Of a DNA stretch of 64,000 nt, positions 5,099 through 12,198 are shown piece by piece. Both the position numbers and the translations under genes were made by a program. Within the stretch, counting starts at the first letter, position 1. Each line of letters begins with the position of its first letter. The stretch spans positions 806,001 through 870,000 of the forward strand of contig NZ_CP109592.1 of assembly GCF_036250675.1 (NCBI RefSeq). The letters run 5' to 3'. This DNA comes from Streptomyces sp. NBC_01689. GTDB taxonomy: Bacteria > Actinomycetota > Actinomycetes > Streptomycetales > Streptomycetaceae. The notes under the pieces are model-generated. The model worked only from the letters and a program-made list of their open reading frames with translations, was not told the DNA's origin and made no database searches.

Positions 5099-6133
5099 TC
5101 ACGTCTGCCGGAGCGGCTGGTAGGCCTCGGCCGCGACACCGAACGTCCAGGCCACCCCCTCACGGGCCGTGCGTGTGGTCGGCGGGACGCGCAGCCAGTA
5201 CGTGCGGCTCGTACCGTCCGGCTCCGGCGTGGAGTTGACGACCTCCACCATCACCACGTCCTCGTCCCCGACGAGTTCGACGCGCCACAGGACGCCCGTC
5301 TCGTCCCGGTGCACGGGCACCGCCCCCGACTCTGCGAGGTACCGGTCGTAGCCGTAGAACTCCAGCATCACACGGCGGAGTTCGGCGTTCTCCTCCTCAC
5401 GGATGCGCTTCGGGTCGAGGGAGGCCAGCTCGGCGAGGAAATCACCCGGCACCGGCATGCCGCGCCAGGCGTACAGCTCGAATCCGTCCGCGTATCCGAG
5501 CGCCGGTCCGTCGCCACGGTCCAGACGGCCCGCCTCGTCGCGGTGGAGCTCGGTGGGCCGCTCGCAGACGACCGCCACCCGCTCGTAGGGCCACCACCAG
5601 CCGGCCGCGCGGGCCACCAGAGCCGGACCGCCCAGCGGACCCGAGGGGTCCGTGTCGAACGCGGACAGCCAGGCCGCGTCGTGCTGACCGAGCGCCGCGT
5701 CGAGCAACAGGAGCCGGACCCGGGTCTCCTCCTTGCCGCCGGTGGCCGTCTGCTCGACGACTCCCGCGCGGATCCGGTCGACCAGGATCCGGGTCGATTC
5801 CCACAGGCCGGCCCCCGTCGCGTTCCAGTGGCCGCTCCATCCCTGCGGCCCCAGAAGCCCGTGGAGCCGCTCGCGTTCGGCTGCCCAGGGTCCGCTCAGT
5901 ACCGCGTGGCGCACGCTCGCGCCGGTCTCGTCCTCCGTCGGCGCCACGCCGTCGGGACCCTGCGCGCCCATGAGTACGTGAACCGCCTCGCGGGGAGAGC
6001 GCACCCACACCACGCGCTCGGGCCCCGTCAGACCCGCGCGCCGGTAGGCGAGCCGGATCCCCTCCTCGGCCGCGGCACGATCCGCGGGTCCCGTGGCCGC
6101 CGCCACCGCACGCCAAACAGCCATGTCCGTCAT
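5099..6133 (-). CDS. DUF6745 domain protein
   Basis: The ATG at 6133 is preceded by GGGGAGAG at suitable spacing; the same frame is open further upstream but low-complexity and not coding-like. The 344-residue product carries a C-terminal DUF6745-type region: ELHRDEAGRLDRGDGPAL, YADGFELYAWRGMPVP, a YGYDRYL segment, then VMVEVVNSTPEPDG and TAREGVAWTFG close to the end. Known DUF6745 proteins have no assigned activity. It is not membrane-bound and has no signal peptide. It follows a 108-residue small protein on the same strand (208 bases apart), and that gene is divergent from the STM4015-STM4011 operon with which it shares a bidirectional promoter region. I infer that it belongs to the same functional set. 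Confidence 0.75.
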   Translation of the reverse strand: MTDMAVWRAVAAATGPADRAAAEEGIRLAYRRAGLTGPERVVWVRSPREAVHVLMGAQGPDGVAPTEDETGASVRHAVLSGPWAAERERLHGLLGPQGWSGHWNATGAGLWESTRILVDRIRAGVVEQTATGGKEETRVRLLLLDAALGQHDAAWLSAFDTDPSGPLGGPALVARAAGWWWPYERVAVVCERPTELHRDEAGRLDRGDGPALGYADGFELYAWRGMPVPGDFLAELASLDPKRIREEENAELRRVMLEFYGYDRYLAESGAVPVHRDETGVLWRVELVGDEDVVMVEVVNSTPEPDGTSRTYWLRVPPTTRTAREGVAWTFGVAAEAYQPLRQT

Positions 6134-6341: not shown

Positions 6342-6668
6342 TCAGTCGGCGACGATCCGCACCGAACCCGGCACGTACTCCCGCTGCCGGACGACCCGGT
6401 ACCACCCCTTCGGGAGGGATATGGCCGCGTGTTCCTCGTGGACGACCCGCGCTCCGTCCGGGACGTGCAGCAGCATGGGCCCGAAGACGCCGGCCTCCCT
6501 GACCAGCCGACCGGGGCCCACCACCGCATGGGCGTGGCCGGTGACCTCACCGAGCGCGAGGACGAGCCGGCCCCGGCCGTCACGCGGCTCGGACGGCGCG
6601 TCGGCCGCGCCCTTCGGTACCGCCTCCGGTGCCAACGACACCATCAGGACATCTCCTTGCCGGTACAT
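6342..6668 (-). CDS. Small protein (about 108 residues) paired with the DUF6745 gene
   Basis: The start chosen is the ATG at 6668 (MYRQGDVLMV), preceded by a GGAGGGAGA ribosome binding site. The product is all-beta in appearance with the blocks QGDVLMV, LALGEVTGHAHAV, HEEHAAISLPKGWYRVVRQREYVP. I have seen this pattern in small bacterial proteins found beside DUF6745 genes, but I know of no function. The conserved histidines (GHAHAV and HEEH) could bind a metal. It is the first gene on the minus strand from the divergent promoter region at 6708-6770 and is the likely direct target of the minus-strand damage-type promoter. Confidence 0.7.
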   Translation of the reverse strand: MYRQGDVLMVSLAPEAVPKGAADAPSEPRDGRGRLVLALGEVTGHAHAVVGPGRLVREAGVFGPMLLHVPDGARVVHEEHAAISLPKGWYRVVRQREYVPGSVRIVAD

Positions 6669-6707: not shown

Positions 6708-6730
6708 ACCGTAGGGGCGGCCACTGACAC
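6708..6730 (-). promoter_or_regulatory. PafBC/RecA-NDp-type DNA-damage promoter, minus strand
   Basis: Read on the minus strand the sequence is GTGTCAGTG, 8 bases, then TACGGT. This fits the published actinobacterial RecA-independent damage promoter pattern tTGTCRgtg-N8-TAnnnT, including the exact spacer length and a full TAnnnT -10 box. Transcription would begin near 6701, about 33 bases upstream of the small-protein ATG at 6668. The other arm of the same inverted repeat forms the plus-strand promoter. Confidence 0.65.
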
Positions 6731-6747
6731 TCCCCCGCCGCACGGGG

Positions 6748-6770
6748 TTGTCAGTGGGTCTTGGTAGAAC
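6748..6770 (+). promoter_or_regulatory. PafBC/RecA-NDp-type DNA-damage promoter, plus strand
   Basis: The sequence is TTGTCAGTG, 8 bases, then TAGAAC. The first element matches the tTGTCRgtg consensus of PafBC-dependent promoters perfectly and the spacer is exactly 8; the last base of the -10 box (C instead of T) is the only deviation. Transcription would start near 6777, 80 bases before the STM4015 start codon. CCACTGACA (6721-6729) and TGTCAGTGG (6749-6757) form a perfect 9-bp inverted repeat that makes the two promoters back to back. Confidence 0.65.
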
Positions 6771-6856
6771 TCCGGTACCTGGGAATGCGGTCCGCGCGCA
6801 CCAGGCACCCCACGACCGACCCACCACCGACCAGATGCACGAAGGAGCGGGCGCGC

Positions 6857-7825
6857 ATGACCATCGGTAGCCACCTGCAGGAATTCCACGGACTGCCCGC
6901 GTTCACCTTCCCGGACGCGGCGGACGGCCCCCTCGACGTCACCGCTCTCCCGTCCCCGGAGACCGTCGCCTGGCGGGTGGCAGTGGACTCCTACGAGAGC
7001 CAGGAGTCGTGGCCGGAGGCGTTCGCCCGGTTCCTCGCCGCCGTCGACACCAAGGCCGTGCGGGCCCTGGTCGTGGGCGCCTGGAGCGACGCCTACGACA
7101 ACGGTCCGGCCGAGGTGATCGAGGCGCTCGTGGCGGCCCGGGACCGGCTGCCCGAGCTGCGCGCGATATTCCTCGCGGACATCGTGATGGAGGAGTGCGA
7201 GATCTCCTGGATCGTCCAGGGGGACGTCTCTCCCGTGCTGGAGGCCTTTCCCCTGCTGGAGGAGTTCGGTGTCCGCGGCGGCAACCAGCTGGTCTTCCCC
7301 ACGGTCCGTCACGAGCGGCTGCGCAGGCTGACGGTGGAGACCGGCGGTATGCCCGTCGAGGCCGTGCGAGGTGTCGCGGGCAGCGACCTGCCGTCGCTCG
7401 TCCATCTCGACCTGTGGCTGGGCACGTCCGAGTACGGCGGCGACAGTGAACTCGGCGACCTGGAGCCGTTCTTCGCCGGGACCCGCCTTCCCGCACTGAA
7501 GCACCTGGCCCTGCGCAACAGCGAGATCCAGGACGCCATCTGTTCCGCGCTGGCCTCGGCACCCGTGGTGGCCCGGCTCGACGCCCTCGACGTGTCCATG
7601 GGCGTCCTCACCGACGACGGCGCGACGGCACTGCTGTCGGGACAGCCGCTGACTCACCTGAAATCCCTCGACCTGCACCACAACTACCTCAGCGCGGGCG
7701 TCCGTTCGCGTCTGCTGGAGACGCTCGAGCCGCACGGCGTGGAGGTCCGCGCAGATCAGGACGACGCCGATGCCGACGAGGAGGAGGACGGGACCGTCTG
7801 GCGTTTCGTGGCGGTGGGCGAGTAG
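6857..7825 (+). CDS. STM4015 family leucine-rich-repeat protein
   Basis: The ATG at 6857 has GAAGGAG nine bases upstream; an in-frame ATG at 6785 lacks a good site. The 322-residue product matches the STM4015 family, named after the Salmonella cluster STM4011-STM4015. The N-terminal part contains MTIGSHLQEFHGLPAFTF and a strongly acidic central segment (LVVGAWSDAYD, IFLADIVMEECEISWI). The C-terminal half carries leucine-rich repeats such as LPALKHLALRNSEI, LDALDVSMGVLTDDGA and LTHLKSLDLHHNYLS. It is cytoplasmic. Leucine-rich repeats suggest a protein-binding platform; its constant linkage to radical SAM and ATP-grasp genes suggests it presents or is itself the substrate. It is the first gene of a five-gene operon. 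Confidence 0.85.
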   Translation: MTIGSHLQEFHGLPAFTFPDAADGPLDVTALPSPETVAWRVAVDSYESQESWPEAFARFLAAVDTKAVRALVVGAWSDAYDNGPAEVIEALVAARDRLPELRAIFLADIVMEECEISWIVQGDVSPVLEAFPLLEEFGVRGGNQLVFPTVRHERLRRLTVETGGMPVEAVRGVAGSDLPSLVHLDLWLGTSEYGGDSELGDLEPFFAGTRLPALKHLALRNSEIQDAICSALASAPVVARLDALDVSMGVLTDDGATALLSGQPLTHLKSLDLHHNYLSAGVRSRLLETLEPHGVEVRADQDDADADEEEDGTVWRFVAVGE

Positions 7826-7858: not shown

Positions 7859-9028
7859 GTGTCAGGAGTGGACGGCGTGGACACGCGCCGCGGCCCGACC
7901 CGGTGGGCGGTCGTCGCCAACGGGGAGAACCGGAGGGTCGCCCTGTTCACCGCGGCGGCCGTCGCCGCCGGTCACGGCACGCCCCGTGTGGTCGAGTGGC
8001 GTGACGTGCTGTGCGAGGGCGGTCACGACTTCGCCGACGACGAGATCGTCCGCCTGGACTCCCCGGGGGAGGACGCGCGGGTGGACCGCCTGCTGCGCGG
8101 GGTCGACGATCCGACCCGGGTGGAGGGTTCGGCCCGCTGGTACGCGCGCTTCCTCGACGGCGTGGCCTCCCTGCGCGGCGGACGTCGGCTCGACGCCCCG
8201 GCGGACCTGGCCGTCCTCTTCGACAAGCGGCTCTGCCACGCCCGGCTGCGGGAGGCGGGGGTACCCGTGCCGGTCTCCCCGACCACGGGCGGCACCGCTG
8301 CGGCCGGGGACTGGCCCGCGGTGCGGGCCCGGATGGCGGAGGCGGGCCTGCGGCGGGCGTTCGTGAAGCTCGCGCACGGCTCGTCCGCCTCCGGTGTGCT
8401 CGCGGTCGAGACGACGACGGCGGGACGCGTCCGGGCCACGACCTCGGTGGAGCTCGCGGACGGCCGGCTGCACAACTCGCTGCGTGTGCGCCACTACACC
8501 GACGAGTCCGAGGTCGCCGCGATCGTGGACCGGCTCGCGCCGGACGGGCTGCACATCGAGCGCTGGCTGCCCAAGGCGTCGCTGGGCGGCCGGTCGGCGG
8601 ACCTGCGCGTCCTCGTCGTGGCCGGCCGGGCCACCCACGCCGTCGTCCGTACCAGCCGCTTCCCCCTCACCAACCTCCATCTCGGCGGCACCCGCGGTGA
8701 CCTGTCGGCCGTCCGGGCGCTGGCCGGCGACCGGTGGGCCCAGGCGCTCGGCATCTGCGAACGGGCCGCGGCCTGCTTCCCGGAGACCCTGTGCGTGGGT
8801 GTCGACCTGCTGCCCGCCGTCGGCTGGCGCCGGTTCGCCGTCGGGGAGGTCAACGCGTTCGGTGATCTGCTGCCCCGGCTCACCGGCCTGCCGGGCGGCC
8901 CCGCGGAAGGACTCGACACCTACGCCGCCCAGATCGCGGCCCTCGGTCCGCGCCCGCCCGCCCGGTTCGTGGCGCGGCCCACGCCCTCCCCGCACCACGG
9001 TTCAAGGACACTCCATGCCTCACTCTGA
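7859..9028 (+). CDS. STM4014 family ATP-grasp-like protein
   Basis: It begins at a GTG preceded by GGAGG, 33 bases after STM4015. The 389-residue product shows the features of an ATP-grasp enzyme: an N-terminal NGENRRVALFTAA domain, FDKRLCHARLREAGVPVP (entry to the grasp domain), FVKLAHGSSASGVLAV (lysine and glycine loop that covers ATP), DLRVLVVAGRATHAVVR, and GVDLLP with VGEVNAFGDLLP, carrying the acidic and asparagine residues that bind magnesium. ATP-grasp enzymes join a carboxylate to an amine or thiol through an acyl phosphate; RimK-type members modify proteins or peptides. The actual substrate is unknown. Its stop overlaps the STM4013 start by 14 bases. Confidence 0.82.
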   Translation: MSGVDGVDTRRGPTRWAVVANGENRRVALFTAAAVAAGHGTPRVVEWRDVLCEGGHDFADDEIVRLDSPGEDARVDRLLRGVDDPTRVEGSARWYARFLDGVASLRGGRRLDAPADLAVLFDKRLCHARLREAGVPVPVSPTTGGTAAAGDWPAVRARMAEAGLRRAFVKLAHGSSASGVLAVETTTAGRVRATTSVELADGRLHNSLRVRHYTDESEVAAIVDRLAPDGLHIERWLPKASLGGRSADLRVLVVAGRATHAVVRTSRFPLTNLHLGGTRGDLSAVRALAGDRWAQALGICERAAACFPETLCVGVDLLPAVGWRRFAVGEVNAFGDLLPRLTGLPGGPAEGLDTYAAQIAALGPRPPARFVARPTPSPHHGSRTLHASL

Positions 9029-9890
9029 CCCGCCCACCGGCACGGCGCCCGCGGCGACCGCGGGCCCGCTCCCGACACCCGACATGAACGAGGTGGTGGG
9101 CCGGGACGACCTGCTGCTGCTCACACTCGACACCCTGCGGTACGACGTCGCCGTCGATCTCGCGGCAGCCGGCCGCCTGCCGAACCTGGCGGCGCATCTC
9201 CCGGGCGGCACCTGGGAGAAGCGGCACGCCCCGGGCAGCTTCACCTACGCGTCCCATCAGGCGATGTTCGCGGGGTTCCTGCCCACCCCGGCCTCCCAGG
9301 GGCCCCATCCACGGCTGTTCGCCGCCCGGTTCGCCGGCAGCGAGTCCACCGAGGGCCGTACGTTCGTCTTCGACACCCCGGACATCGTGTCGGCGCTGGC
9401 CGCCCGTGACTACCGCACCGTGTGCGTCGGCGGCGTCGGCTTCTTCAACAGGCAGGGGGCCCTGGGCGACGTCCTCCCCGGTCTCTTCCAGGAGAGCCAC
9501 TGGGAACCGGAGTTCTCCGTGGCCTCGCCGACGTCCTTCGCGGCGCAGGTGGCGCGGGCCGAGCGGATCGTGGCCGAACTGCCCGCGCACCAGAAGCTGT
9601 TCCTCTTCCTCAATGTCTCCGCGCTGCACCAGCCGAACTGGTTCCACCTGGAAGGCGCCACCCGGGAGGCCGGGGACAGCCGGAACACCCACGCCGCCGC
9701 GCTGGAGTACGTCGACCGCCATGTCGGGCGGCTGTTCGCGGCCATGTCCGCGCGCCGTCGCTGCTTCGCCATCGTCTGCTCCGACCACGGCACGGCGTAC
9801 GGGGACGACGGTTACACCGGCCACCGGCTGGGCCACGAGTCCGTGTGGACCGTCCCCTACAGTCACTTCTTCCTGGAGCCCTCCGCATGA
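9015..9890 (+). CDS. STM4013/SEN3800 family hydrolase (alkaline phosphatase/sulfatase superfamily)
   Basis: The ATG at 9015 lies inside the end of STM4014. The 291-residue product has the metal-site layout of the alkaline phosphatase superfamily: LLLTLDTLRYD near residue 35 (aspartate ligand and threonine as probable nucleophile), CSDHGTAYGDDGYTGHRLGHE near the C-terminus (Asp-His pair and the final histidine). These enzymes cleave phosphate or sulfate esters or phosphodiesters using two metals. There is no signal peptide, unlike most sulfatases, so it works in the cytoplasm with its operon partners. It overlaps the next start by ATGA. Confidence 0.85.
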   Translation: MPHSDPPTGTAPAATAGPLPTPDMNEVVGRDDLLLLTLDTLRYDVAVDLAAAGRLPNLAAHLPGGTWEKRHAPGSFTYASHQAMFAGFLPTPASQGPHPRLFAARFAGSESTEGRTFVFDTPDIVSALAARDYRTVCVGGVGFFNRQGALGDVLPGLFQESHWEPEFSVASPTSFAAQVARAERIVAELPAHQKLFLFLNVSALHQPNWFHLEGATREAGDSRNTHAAALEYVDRHVGRLFAAMSARRRCFAIVCSDHGTAYGDDGYTGHRLGHESVWTVPYSHFFLEPSA

Positions 9891-11242
9891 CCATCGCCCC
9901 CGTGGCCGCGGCGCACTCCGTGCCCCGCCCGTACCAGAGCTATCTGTACGCCTATCCGCACAAGACCGCCTACCGGCCGCTCGCGCCGCGCCCCGAGCTG
10001 GAGCGGTTGTGGGCGGACGAGTCCCGACAGGCGCTCTCCCTGTACCTGCACATCCCGTTCTGCGAGGTGCGCTGCGGCTTCTGCAACCTGTTCACCCGCG
10101 TCGGCGCCCCCGACGGGCTGACCGGCCGTTACCTCGACGCCCTGAGCCGGCAGGCCGTCGCCGTGCGCGAGGCGCTCGGCGACGCCTCGTCACCGCGGTT
10201 CGCCAACGCGGCCTTCGGGGGCGGCACGCCCACCTTCCTGGAGGCCGCGGAACTGGAGCGCCTCTGCGACATCGCGGAACGTGACATGGGCGCGGACCTG
10301 CGGTCGGTCCCGCTGTCCGTGGAGGCGTCGCCCGCGACGGCGACCGCCGACCGCCTCGCCGTCCTGGTCCGGCGCGGCGCCACCCGGATCAGTCTCGGGG
10401 TGCAGAGCTTCGTCGAGGACGAGGCCCGCGCCGCGGTACGCCCGCAACGTCGCTCCGACGTCGAGTCCGCGCTCAGCCGGATCCGGGAGTCGGCCGTCGC
10501 GGTCCTCAACATCGACCTGATCTACGGCATCGACGGTCAGACCACGGCCAGTTGGCGCTACTCCCTCGACGCGGCCCTGGCCTGGCGGCCGGAGGAGATC
10601 TACCTCTACCCGCTCTACATCCGTCCGCTCACGGGCCTCGGCCGCCACGCGGACGCGCGGACCGCCGACCGGGAGTGGGACGAGCAGCGGCTGCGCCTGT
10701 ACCGCGAGGGCCGAGACCATCTGCTGTCCGAGGGCTACGAGCAGGTGTCGATGCGCATGTTCCGCCGTGCCGACGCGCCTCCGCAGGGGCCCGACGACTA
10801 CGCGTGCCAGACGGACGGCATGATCGGACTGGGCTGCGGGGCACGGTCGTACACCTCCGCTCTGCACTACTCCTTCGACTACGCCGTGTCGATGCGCGAA
10901 GTGCGCGCCATCATCGACGACTACAGCGCCACCGAGGACTTCTCCCGTGCCCTGCACGGCCGTTGGGTGGACGAGGACGAGGCCCGCCGCCGGCACCTGT
11001 TGCAGTCGCTGCTGCAGGCCGGGGGTCTGGTCCGCGGTGACTACCGGAGTCGGTTCGGCACCGACCCCGCCGACGACTTCGCCGCCGAACTGGACGTCCT
11101 CGGCCGGCGTGGCTGGCTCCAGGACGCGGGGACCGAGCGGCTGGTGCTCTCGCCCGAGGGGCTGGCCCATTCGGACGCCATCGGACCCGAGTTCTTCTCC
11201 CCGGCCGTCCGGGACGCCATGGCCGCCTACGAGACGAGGTGA
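9887..11242 (+). CDS. STM4012 family radical SAM protein (HemN-like)
   Basis: Translation starts in an ATGA overlap with STM4013. The 451-residue product has the radical SAM cluster motif HIPFCEVRCGFCN (Cys59, Cys63, Cys66; CX3CX2C), the GGGTPTFL motif that binds S-adenosylmethionine, SVEASPATAT, SLGVQSF and LIYGIDGQT. These match the HemN/coproporphyrinogen-dehydrogenase-like branch. HemN-like relatives include heme chaperones and C-methyltransferases, so the name should not be read as a heme biosynthesis role. In this operon it is more likely one of two radical enzymes acting on the same unknown substrate. Confidence 0.88.
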   Translation: MTIAPVAAAHSVPRPYQSYLYAYPHKTAYRPLAPRPELERLWADESRQALSLYLHIPFCEVRCGFCNLFTRVGAPDGLTGRYLDALSRQAVAVREALGDASSPRFANAAFGGGTPTFLEAAELERLCDIAERDMGADLRSVPLSVEASPATATADRLAVLVRRGATRISLGVQSFVEDEARAAVRPQRRSDVESALSRIRESAVAVLNIDLIYGIDGQTTASWRYSLDAALAWRPEEIYLYPLYIRPLTGLGRHADARTADREWDEQRLRLYREGRDHLLSEGYEQVSMRMFRRADAPPQGPDDYACQTDGMIGLGCGARSYTSALHYSFDYAVSMREVRAIIDDYSATEDFSRALHGRWVDEDEARRRHLLQSLLQAGGLVRGDYRSRFGTDPADDFAAELDVLGRRGWLQDAGTERLVLSPEGLAHSDAIGPEFFSPAVRDAMAAYETR

Positions 11243-11247
11243 CGACC

Positions 11248-12198
11248 ATGGACCTGACAGACCCAACAGACCTGACAAACCTCACCGTCCTCTATCGCGG
11301 GCCCCTGGCCTCCTGCGACTACGACTGCCCGTACTGCCCGTTCGCCAAGCGCCGGGACAGCGCGGCCCAGCTGCGCGCCGACCGTGCCGCGCTCGAACGG
11401 TTCGTGGCCTGGGCGCGTGGTCCGCACGACCACCGGCTGTCGGTGCTGTTCACACCGTGGGGCGAGGGACTGACCCGCTCCTGGTACCGCCGGGCTCTGG
11501 TGGACCTGTCCCACGAACCGCGCGTCGAGCGGGTCGCCACCCAGACCAACCTGAGCTGCCGCACCGACTGGCTCACGGAGGCGGCGGCCGACACGGTCGC
11601 CCTCTGGTGCACGTATCACCCGGGGCAGACACCCTACGGGCGGTTCCTCGCCAAGACGCACCGCCTGTCCGGCCTGGGGATCCGGTACAGCGTGGGTGTG
11701 GTGGGCCTCCCCGAGCATCTGGACGACGCACGGCGGTTGCGTGCCGACCTGCCCTCGCACGTCTATCTGTGGATCAACGCCGCCGAGGGCCACACCTACA
11801 CCGACGAGCAGGCCGACGAGTGGACCGCGCTGGATCCGCTCTTCCCGTACAGCCGGCGTCCGCACCGCTCGGCGGGGCTGCCGTGCCGGACCGGCCGGAG
11901 CGTCGTCTCGGTCGACGGAGAGGGCACCGTCCGGCGCTGTCACTTCGTCCGGACGGAGCTCGGCAACCTCTACGACGGCTCCTACCGCTCCGCGCTCGCC
12001 CCGAGGCCGTGCCCGCTCACCGCGTGCGACTGTCACATCGGGTACGTCCATCTGGAGACCCTGCCGTTGTACGACGTCTTCGCGGGCGGGGTCCTCGAAC
12101 GCGTCCCCCGCGCGCAGGCGCTGCCGCCGCGCCCGCTCCTCCCGGTGGTCAGCGGCCGACCCGGTCCTCCGGCAGCTTCACCAGCCCCAGCTCGATGA
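11248..12198 (+). CDS. STM4011 family radical SAM protein
   Basis: The ATG at 11248 has GAGGTGA eight bases upstream, which overlaps the STM4012 stop; a GTG at 11239 is an alternative. The 316-residue product carries CDYDCPYC (Cys23, Cys27, Cys30), followed by FTPWGEGL and YHPGQTPYGRF. Near the C-terminus are further cysteines in CRTGRSVVSVDGEG, VRRCHF and CPLTACDCH, a spacing that resembles the SPASM/twitch auxiliary iron-sulfur cluster region found in peptide- and protein-modifying radical SAM enzymes. The last 50 bases overlap the end of the convergent reductase gene. Confidence 0.85.
   Translation: MDLTDPTDLTNLTVLYRGPLASCDYDCPYCPFAKRRDSAAQLRADRAALERFVAWARGPHDHRLSVLFTPWGEGLTRSWYRRALVDLSHEPRVERVATQTNLSCRTDWLTEAAADTVALWCTYHPGQTPYGRFLAKTHRLSGLGIRYSVGVVGLPEHLDDARRLRADLPSHVYLWINAAEGHTYTDEQADEWTALDPLFPYSRRPHRSAGLPCRTGRSVVSVDGEGTVRRCHFVRTELGNLYDGSYRSALAPRPCPLTACDCHIGYVHLETLPLYDVFAGGVLERVPRAQALPPRPLLPVVSGRPGPPAASPAPAR

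Follow-up and report, generated by a model that had tools for sequence, protein, structure and literature searches.

The window, by which we mean the whole 64-kb stretch of Streptomyces DNA that was analysed, contains a plus-strand block of five genes, STM4015 to STM4011, whose products all score above the cut-offs of their own NCBIfam families (Table 1). The closest relative of the STM4015 protein (98% identity) comes from Streptomyces sp. NPDC048489, and 74 of 150 sampled Streptomyces genomes, about half, have the gene. Two genes diverge from this operon on the minus strand, separated from each other by 208 bases. The initial annotation had regarded them as a DUF6745 pair, a description that suits the distal gene; the proximal one, encoding a conserved 108-aa protein, belongs to no Pfam or NCBIfam family. 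Sequence searches of the PDB with the 108-aa protein, STM4014 and STM4011 gave no credible match, and PADLOC, run on the operon and its neighbours, gave a single weak hit, for STM4012 (PDC-M51A, 1e-7).

Table 1. Genes and sequence features on either side of the divergent region (positions in the window)
Feature	Position	Strand	Remarks
DUF6745 protein	5099..6133	-	PF20530, 385.6 bits; may be the second gene transcribed from the minus promoter
Conserved 108-aa protein	6342..6668	-	no Pfam/NCBIfam family; lies divergently beside STM4015 in 68 of 76 loci
Standard RecA-NDp/PafBC-type promoter (predicted)	6708..6730	-	GTGTCAGTG-N8-TACGGT, -26 element TGTCAGTG; toward the 108-aa ORF and the DUF6745 gene
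Left arm of 9-bp inverted repeat	6721..6729	unstranded	CCACTGACA; minus-promoter -26 element and one additional base
Variant damage-type promoter (predicted)	6748..6771 (core 6748-6770)	+	TTGTCAGTG-N8-TAGAAC; toward STM4015-STM4011
Right arm of 9-bp inverted repeat	6749..6757	unstranded	TGTCAGTGG; plus-promoter -26 element and one additional base
STM4015 family leucine-rich-repeat protein	6857..7825	+	322 aa; C-terminus WRFVAVGE
STM4014 family protein	7859..9028	+	ATP-grasp fold by model
STM4013/SEN3800 family hydrolase	9015..9890	+	sulfatase/phosphodiesterase kind; start 9015 or 9084
STM4012 family radical SAM protein	9887..11242	+	HemN-like
STM4011 family radical SAM protein	11239..12198	+	

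The gap between the two divergent start codons, put at 160 bp earlier, measures 188 bp. It contains a perfect 9-bp inverted repeat, the two arms being exact reverse complements, and each arm provides the -26 element of a promoter that points outward, with an eight-base spacer on both sides. In these respects the sequence is as the initial annotation described it, and the presence of two back-to-back, outward-pointing promoters of the RecA-NDp/PafBC kind is confirmed. The -10 of the minus promoter (TACGGT, 6713-6708) lies 39 bases from its start codon. That of the plus promoter (TAGAAC, 6765-6770) lies 86 bases from the start of STM4015, is preceded in the spacer by a conserved TTGG (6761-6764) that takes the position of an extended -10, and is followed by a T at 6771.

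Are the two promoters of the same kind, as was first proposed? Both have the -26 element TGTCRGTG and the 8-base spacer to the -10. The minus promoter also has TANNNT with T at -7, and so, as judged from its sequence, it carries every feature of the RecA-NDp/PafBC class that was looked for and can be considered standard. The plus -10, on the other hand, ends in C and therefore does not fit the TAnnnT pattern that had been claimed for both. Having two of the three sequence features and failing on the -7 T, the plus promoter is not filed as a standard member; and because, besides lacking that T, it has an extended -10 and hardly occurs except before STM4015 genes, its control by PafBC is something that we infer.

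The standard pattern, TGTCRGTG-N8-TANNNT, is expected 0.01 times in the window and was found once, at the minus site. The 10-Mb genome to which the window belongs has 45 such sites (31 with A and 14 with G at the R position), compared to none for the reversed pattern. When the spacer was allowed to vary (TGTCAGTG-N{0,18}-TANNNT), 40 matches were found against 5 for the reversed control; 31 of the 40 have a spacer of exactly eight bases, the other 9 being distributed over the remaining 18 spacers. One plausible downstream ORF was chosen per site, which gave 43 ORFs for the 44 sites outside the window. Sixteen of these encode repair, recombination or replication proteins by Pfam, namely DinG-like, RecA, two UvrD, RadA-like, an HhH-GPD glycosylase, DnaX, AlkZ-like, Ogt, UvrB, UvrA, RecD2-like, a PDDEXK nuclease, a HelY-like helicase, MgsA and UDG (gene names ending in "-like" are our own labels), and the rest encode mixed or unknown proteins. 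The start codon lies 6-10 bases past the -10 in 22 of the 43, a figure biased by the ORF picker, which takes whichever start codon comes first past the site, and such distances are only suggestive of leaderless transcripts.

The regulator genes are also in place. Intact pafB and pafC, encoding a WYL+WCX protein and an HTH_PafC+WYL+WCX protein, reside at the pup-proteasome locus and are followed by tat-like genes and by a HelY-like helicase gene that bears its own site (names other than PafB/C and Pup were assigned by eye). A second promoter form, TGTCNGACC-N7-TANNNT, occurs at 14 sites in the genome (L149-L162) and never in the control; it precedes ligA, xseA, sbcD and pup (Pfam-confirmed), among others, and also recA, for which it constitutes a second site, identified by overlap with the RecA protein of locus L106. 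The ORF of another of these sites (L150) resembles the SCO6735 macrodomain protein by eye and matches no Pfam family at 1e-5. Damage-type promoters were further seen before genes for a WGR and beta-propeller protein (L100, G000:C1:2086579), a SWIM protein (L112), a DUF4253 protein (L115) and a DUF3670 protein (L151).

By this sequence analysis, a large damage-type regulon using the TGTCRGTG-N8-TANNNT promoter exists in the genome. The result agrees with earlier predictions for Streptomyces, in what we draw from PMC2375139 and PMC5087735, and is at odds with a remark in a mitomycin study of S. venezuelae that defines LexA targets (PMC9380542); the relevant section of that study states that an initial search suggested that the PafBC motif of M. 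smegmatis is not conserved in S. venezuelae.

A straightforward check of the promoters is whether the motif also precedes orthologous operons, and it does. Eighty loci were retained via STM4012, mostly from Streptomyces; 76 of these contain STM4015, and 68 have the divergent small gene. The strict plus core, TGTCRGTG-N8-TA, is found before STM4015 in 64 of the 76 loci and is absent from 12. On the minus side, strict sites occur in 64 of the 68 loci, 39 of class TGTCRGTG and 25 of class TGTCRGAC, and a strict plus core is accompanied by a GTG-class minus core in 31 of the 68. Scoring was also carried out with a weight matrix built from the 44 other sites of the genome, the window being excluded. 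A score of at least 8 was reached toward the small gene in all 68 loci and on the plus side in 63 of 76, compared to 0.55% of 1457 length-matched control regions; the plus side scores below 6 in 9 of the 76 loci. In four Nocardia genomes, the regulon sites read TGTCGGTG in 136 of 142 cases (33/34, 35/37, 33/35 and 35/36; 7 overall for the reversed control), and both promoters of the Nocardia STM4015 locus carry this same G.

The plus promoter has the properties of a conserved variant. Its consensus over representative loci is tTGTCRGTGNNNCTTGGTAGAACT, and conservation drops outside this element apart from a CC about 14 bases upstream. That CC is conserved in the plus promoters of Streptomyces and Nocardia and absent from standard sites; it was rejected as a further promoter element, since it is not kept in other families. 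Among the 67 homologues scoring at least 6, the -7 base is C in 59, A in 8 and T in none. Genome-wide, T occupies -7 at the 45 standard sites and another base at 9, including the plus site, with 1 non-T match in the reversed control; one of these non-T sites, before a priA-like ORF (gene named by eye), has a similar extended -10, TGTCAGTGCCGTCTGGTAGGAA. The complete composite of -26 element and extended -10 occurs only once in the genome, and the idea that plus-type sites make up a general class of regulon sites there was therefore rejected.

The distribution of the composite was followed in 150 Streptomyces genomes, bearing in mind that the pattern was derived from the 80 loci and that some of the 150 genomes may be of the same species, so that the two sets are not independent. 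There were 84 matches, against 10 in total for the reversed control. Sixty-five are found no more than 450 bp ahead of STM4015; they come from 62 of the 74 STM4015-bearing genomes (the other 12 have no composite), and genomes without STM4015 contain the composite anywhere in only 6 of 76 cases (Fisher p 1.5e-22). The 19 matches away from STM4015 compare with those 10 in the control, and many may therefore be due to chance. Some of them precede a PLD/ResIII helicase of more than 800 aa (L194, L197 and L198), which a PADLOC run on L194 and L198 showed to be close to mREase_IV, a type-IV restriction model; another precedes a UvrD/PDDEXK protein (L200).

Counted over STM4015 ORFs, the composite is found before 65 of 82 in Streptomyces and kin, 10 of 12 in Nocardia, 6 of 7 in family f90, 26 of 62 in family f89 (36 without it) and 0 of 2 in family f6. 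The commonest related form in other families is TGTCGG-N7-CTGRTAGGAC, which in several loci precedes more than one tandem copy of STM4015. Tandem STM4015 arrays occur in L235, L248, L253 and L257, with up to five matches in L235 and L248, and several of the copies have their own promoter. In one further locus (L204, G431:C16) both of two STM4015 ORFs have the composite, and three composite promoters follow in series, one before each tandem copy and one before STM4014. This last is the only case among 452 STM4014, STM4013, STM4012 and STM4011 ORFs of the same loci. As far as literature searches go, the STM4015-bound variant and its spread over families are new; the open-licence literature, the 67-gene table of PMC2375139 aside, yielded no paper that ties RecA-NDp/PafBC promoters to STM4015-STM4011 or DUF6745 genes.

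How might the two promoters operate? In M. smegmatis, once PafBC has bound single-stranded DNA, the housekeeping polymerase can use promoters that carry a -26 element, according to the portion of PMC11804915 that bears on this point. By analogy, single-stranded DNA derived from damage would activate PafBC, with PafB holding the TGTCRGTG element and PafC holding the housekeeping sigma factor, and RNA polymerase would then start at the -10 placed 8 bases 3' of the -26 element. The minus promoter, as a standard site, would drive the 108-aa gene and DUF6745, and the plus promoter, as a conserved variant, would drive STM4015-STM4011, its extended -10 (TTGR) presumably making good the missing T at -7. 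We consider it rather probable, on balance, that two damage-activated promoters, divergent and independent of each other, occupy the 188-bp gap, the minus one a standard PafBC promoter and the plus one a conserved PafBC variant. Observed here are the two sites and the spacing within them, a regulon that extends across the genome, intact pafBC genes, and conservation in more than one family. From these, PafBC would bind here and adapt the sigma factor in this organism, damage would induce the genes, and the plus variant would be read by PafBC as well, probably working like a standard PafBC promoter.

The main rival accepts PafBC at the minus promoter and assigns the plus promoter to a different activator, perhaps a WYL protein akin to SiwR that acts at -26, such that the two sides share a theme and not a regulator. 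There is precedent in SiwR of M. smegmatis, a WYL activator described as acting at -26 in the part of PMC10693628 used here, and candidates would not be lacking, as five other PafC-HTH-like matches exist in the genome, of which one exceeds the curated cut-off. The plus element is also longer than the standard site and nearly exclusive to STM4015 genes, and the composite stands before the helicase and UvrD/PDDEXK genes mentioned above, part of which may be chance. A dedicated activator would nevertheless have to account for the exact TGTCRGTG at regulon spacing in 57 of 65 Streptomyces STM4015 sites and for an R base at the plus site that follows the genome-wide preference in Nocardia, and no regulator was found among the genes tracked at the locus. 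We therefore view a second activator as possible, with clearly less in its favour than control of both sides by PafBC.

The remaining explanations fare much worse. The perfect 9-bp repeat in the window might be taken for a single palindromic operator at which one dimeric protein regulates both gene groups. Across 60 loci, however, the two cores are anywhere from 19 to 793 bases apart (no more than 213 in 57 loci), and this variable arm spacing led us to reject the operator as very improbable; moreover, each arm lies 8 bases from its own -10, the minus arm switches from class GTG to class GAC with the plus arm unchanged, and the plus core persists in 7 of the 8 loci that have no divergent gene. 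It is also hard to credit that both are ordinary housekeeping-sigma promoters that share an octamer by chance or descent. The loci are indeed related, being mostly from Streptomyces, but the genome has 45 sites against 0 in the control, and conservation drops outside the element, while 14 of 17 clusters at 65% STM4015 identity keep the strict plus core. The composite, furthermore, recurs in Nocardia, f90 and f89 and is found before only 1 of 452 other operon genes. Finally, the genes could be damage-induced via LexA, whose S. venezuelae targets do include a radical SAM gene (vnz_31145; Table 1 of PMC9380542). This too is most unlikely, and membership in the LexA/SOS regulon was rejected: an SOS-box-like CGAAC-N4-GNNCG is absent from the window gap and present in just 2 of 76 loci, and the exact vnz_31145 SOS box occurs in none of the 278 loci examined.

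Some features of the proteins bear on the possible role of the operon. Glu is the last residue in each of the 168 STM4015 ORFs inspected (those of the window, L018-L097, L204 and L235-L268), and 163 have V at -3; the tail is mostly [YF][VT]AV[SGA]E and is preceded by an acidic stretch. The STM4015 model is a leucine-rich-repeat protein, closest to 2ra8, with the tail at moderate confidence, and the tail may simply be structural. The STM4014 model (pLDDT 86.9) has an ATP-grasp fold; its best PDB match is ArgX-LysW (3vpb, E 1.1e-11), LysX with LysW is among the closest, and PsnB and RimK are among the first ten matches listed. LysX/ArgX and RimK act on the C-terminal Glu of a protein, and the LysW-type carrier is a small acidic zinc protein ending in EDWGE. 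With regard to such ligases, STM4014 has the ATP-grasp fold in its predicted model, and the likeness is to be read as a lead, given identities of 15-19% and query TM-scores of 0.43-0.54 over the first twelve matches listed. With regard to the carrier, STM4015 shares the invariant C-terminal Glu but differs in being a 322-aa leucine-rich-repeat protein with a tail that is mostly AV[SGA]E. The terminal Glu of STM4015, together with a LysX/ArgX/RimK-like STM4014, suggests a carrier protein modified at its C-terminus. Perhaps, then, the operon encodes a damage-switched carrier pathway, in which a molecule would grow on the STM4015 Glu, loaded by STM4014, reworked by STM4012/STM4011 and released by STM4013, all under a promoter class of its own, a PafBC element with an extended -10, that recurs in front of tandem STM4015 genes; we regard this elaborate scheme as speculative and rather unlikely as it stands.

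If control of both sides by PafBC is correct, the STM4015-STM4011 family, which is named after Salmonella genes and has no known role, would for the first time be placed in a physiological setting, namely the DNA damage response that does not depend on RecA. That relatives in several bacterial families retain both promoters suggests a place in this response for a biochemical pathway whose purpose is not known. The same reading would also mean that the regulon is large in a Streptomyces, a point left open by the S. venezuelae study, and that there is a promoter variant in which an extended -10 substitutes for the -7 T of PafBC promoters.

The promoter kind itself is already known, also in Streptomyces: RecA-NDp/PafBC-dependent promoters have been described in mycobacteria and for recA of S. 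rimosus. The system analysed here has the same TGTCRGTG -26 element, 8-base spacer and -10, a repair regulon and pafBC genes, while the plus promoter differs in having no -7 T, an extended -10 and a nearly locus-specific distribution. The sites belong to the same motif family as the TGTCAGT motifs that SIGffRid located at 67 S. coelicolor genes and that were proposed as DNA-damage promoters in Streptomyces, going by the portion of PMC2375139 concerned with this motif. The SCO6735 macrodomain gene offers a parallel as a UV-inducible Streptomyces gene that lies outside the classical repair set and has a RecA-NDp promoter (PMC5087735 and PMC9411070, in the parts dealing with this gene), and differs in being a single gene with no radical SAM operon. 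The SiwR/dinS promoter of M. smegmatis is likewise served by a WYL activator at -26 under genotoxic stress but, as depicted in the relevant part of PMC10693628, it has an imperfect palindrome that adjoins its own regulator gene.
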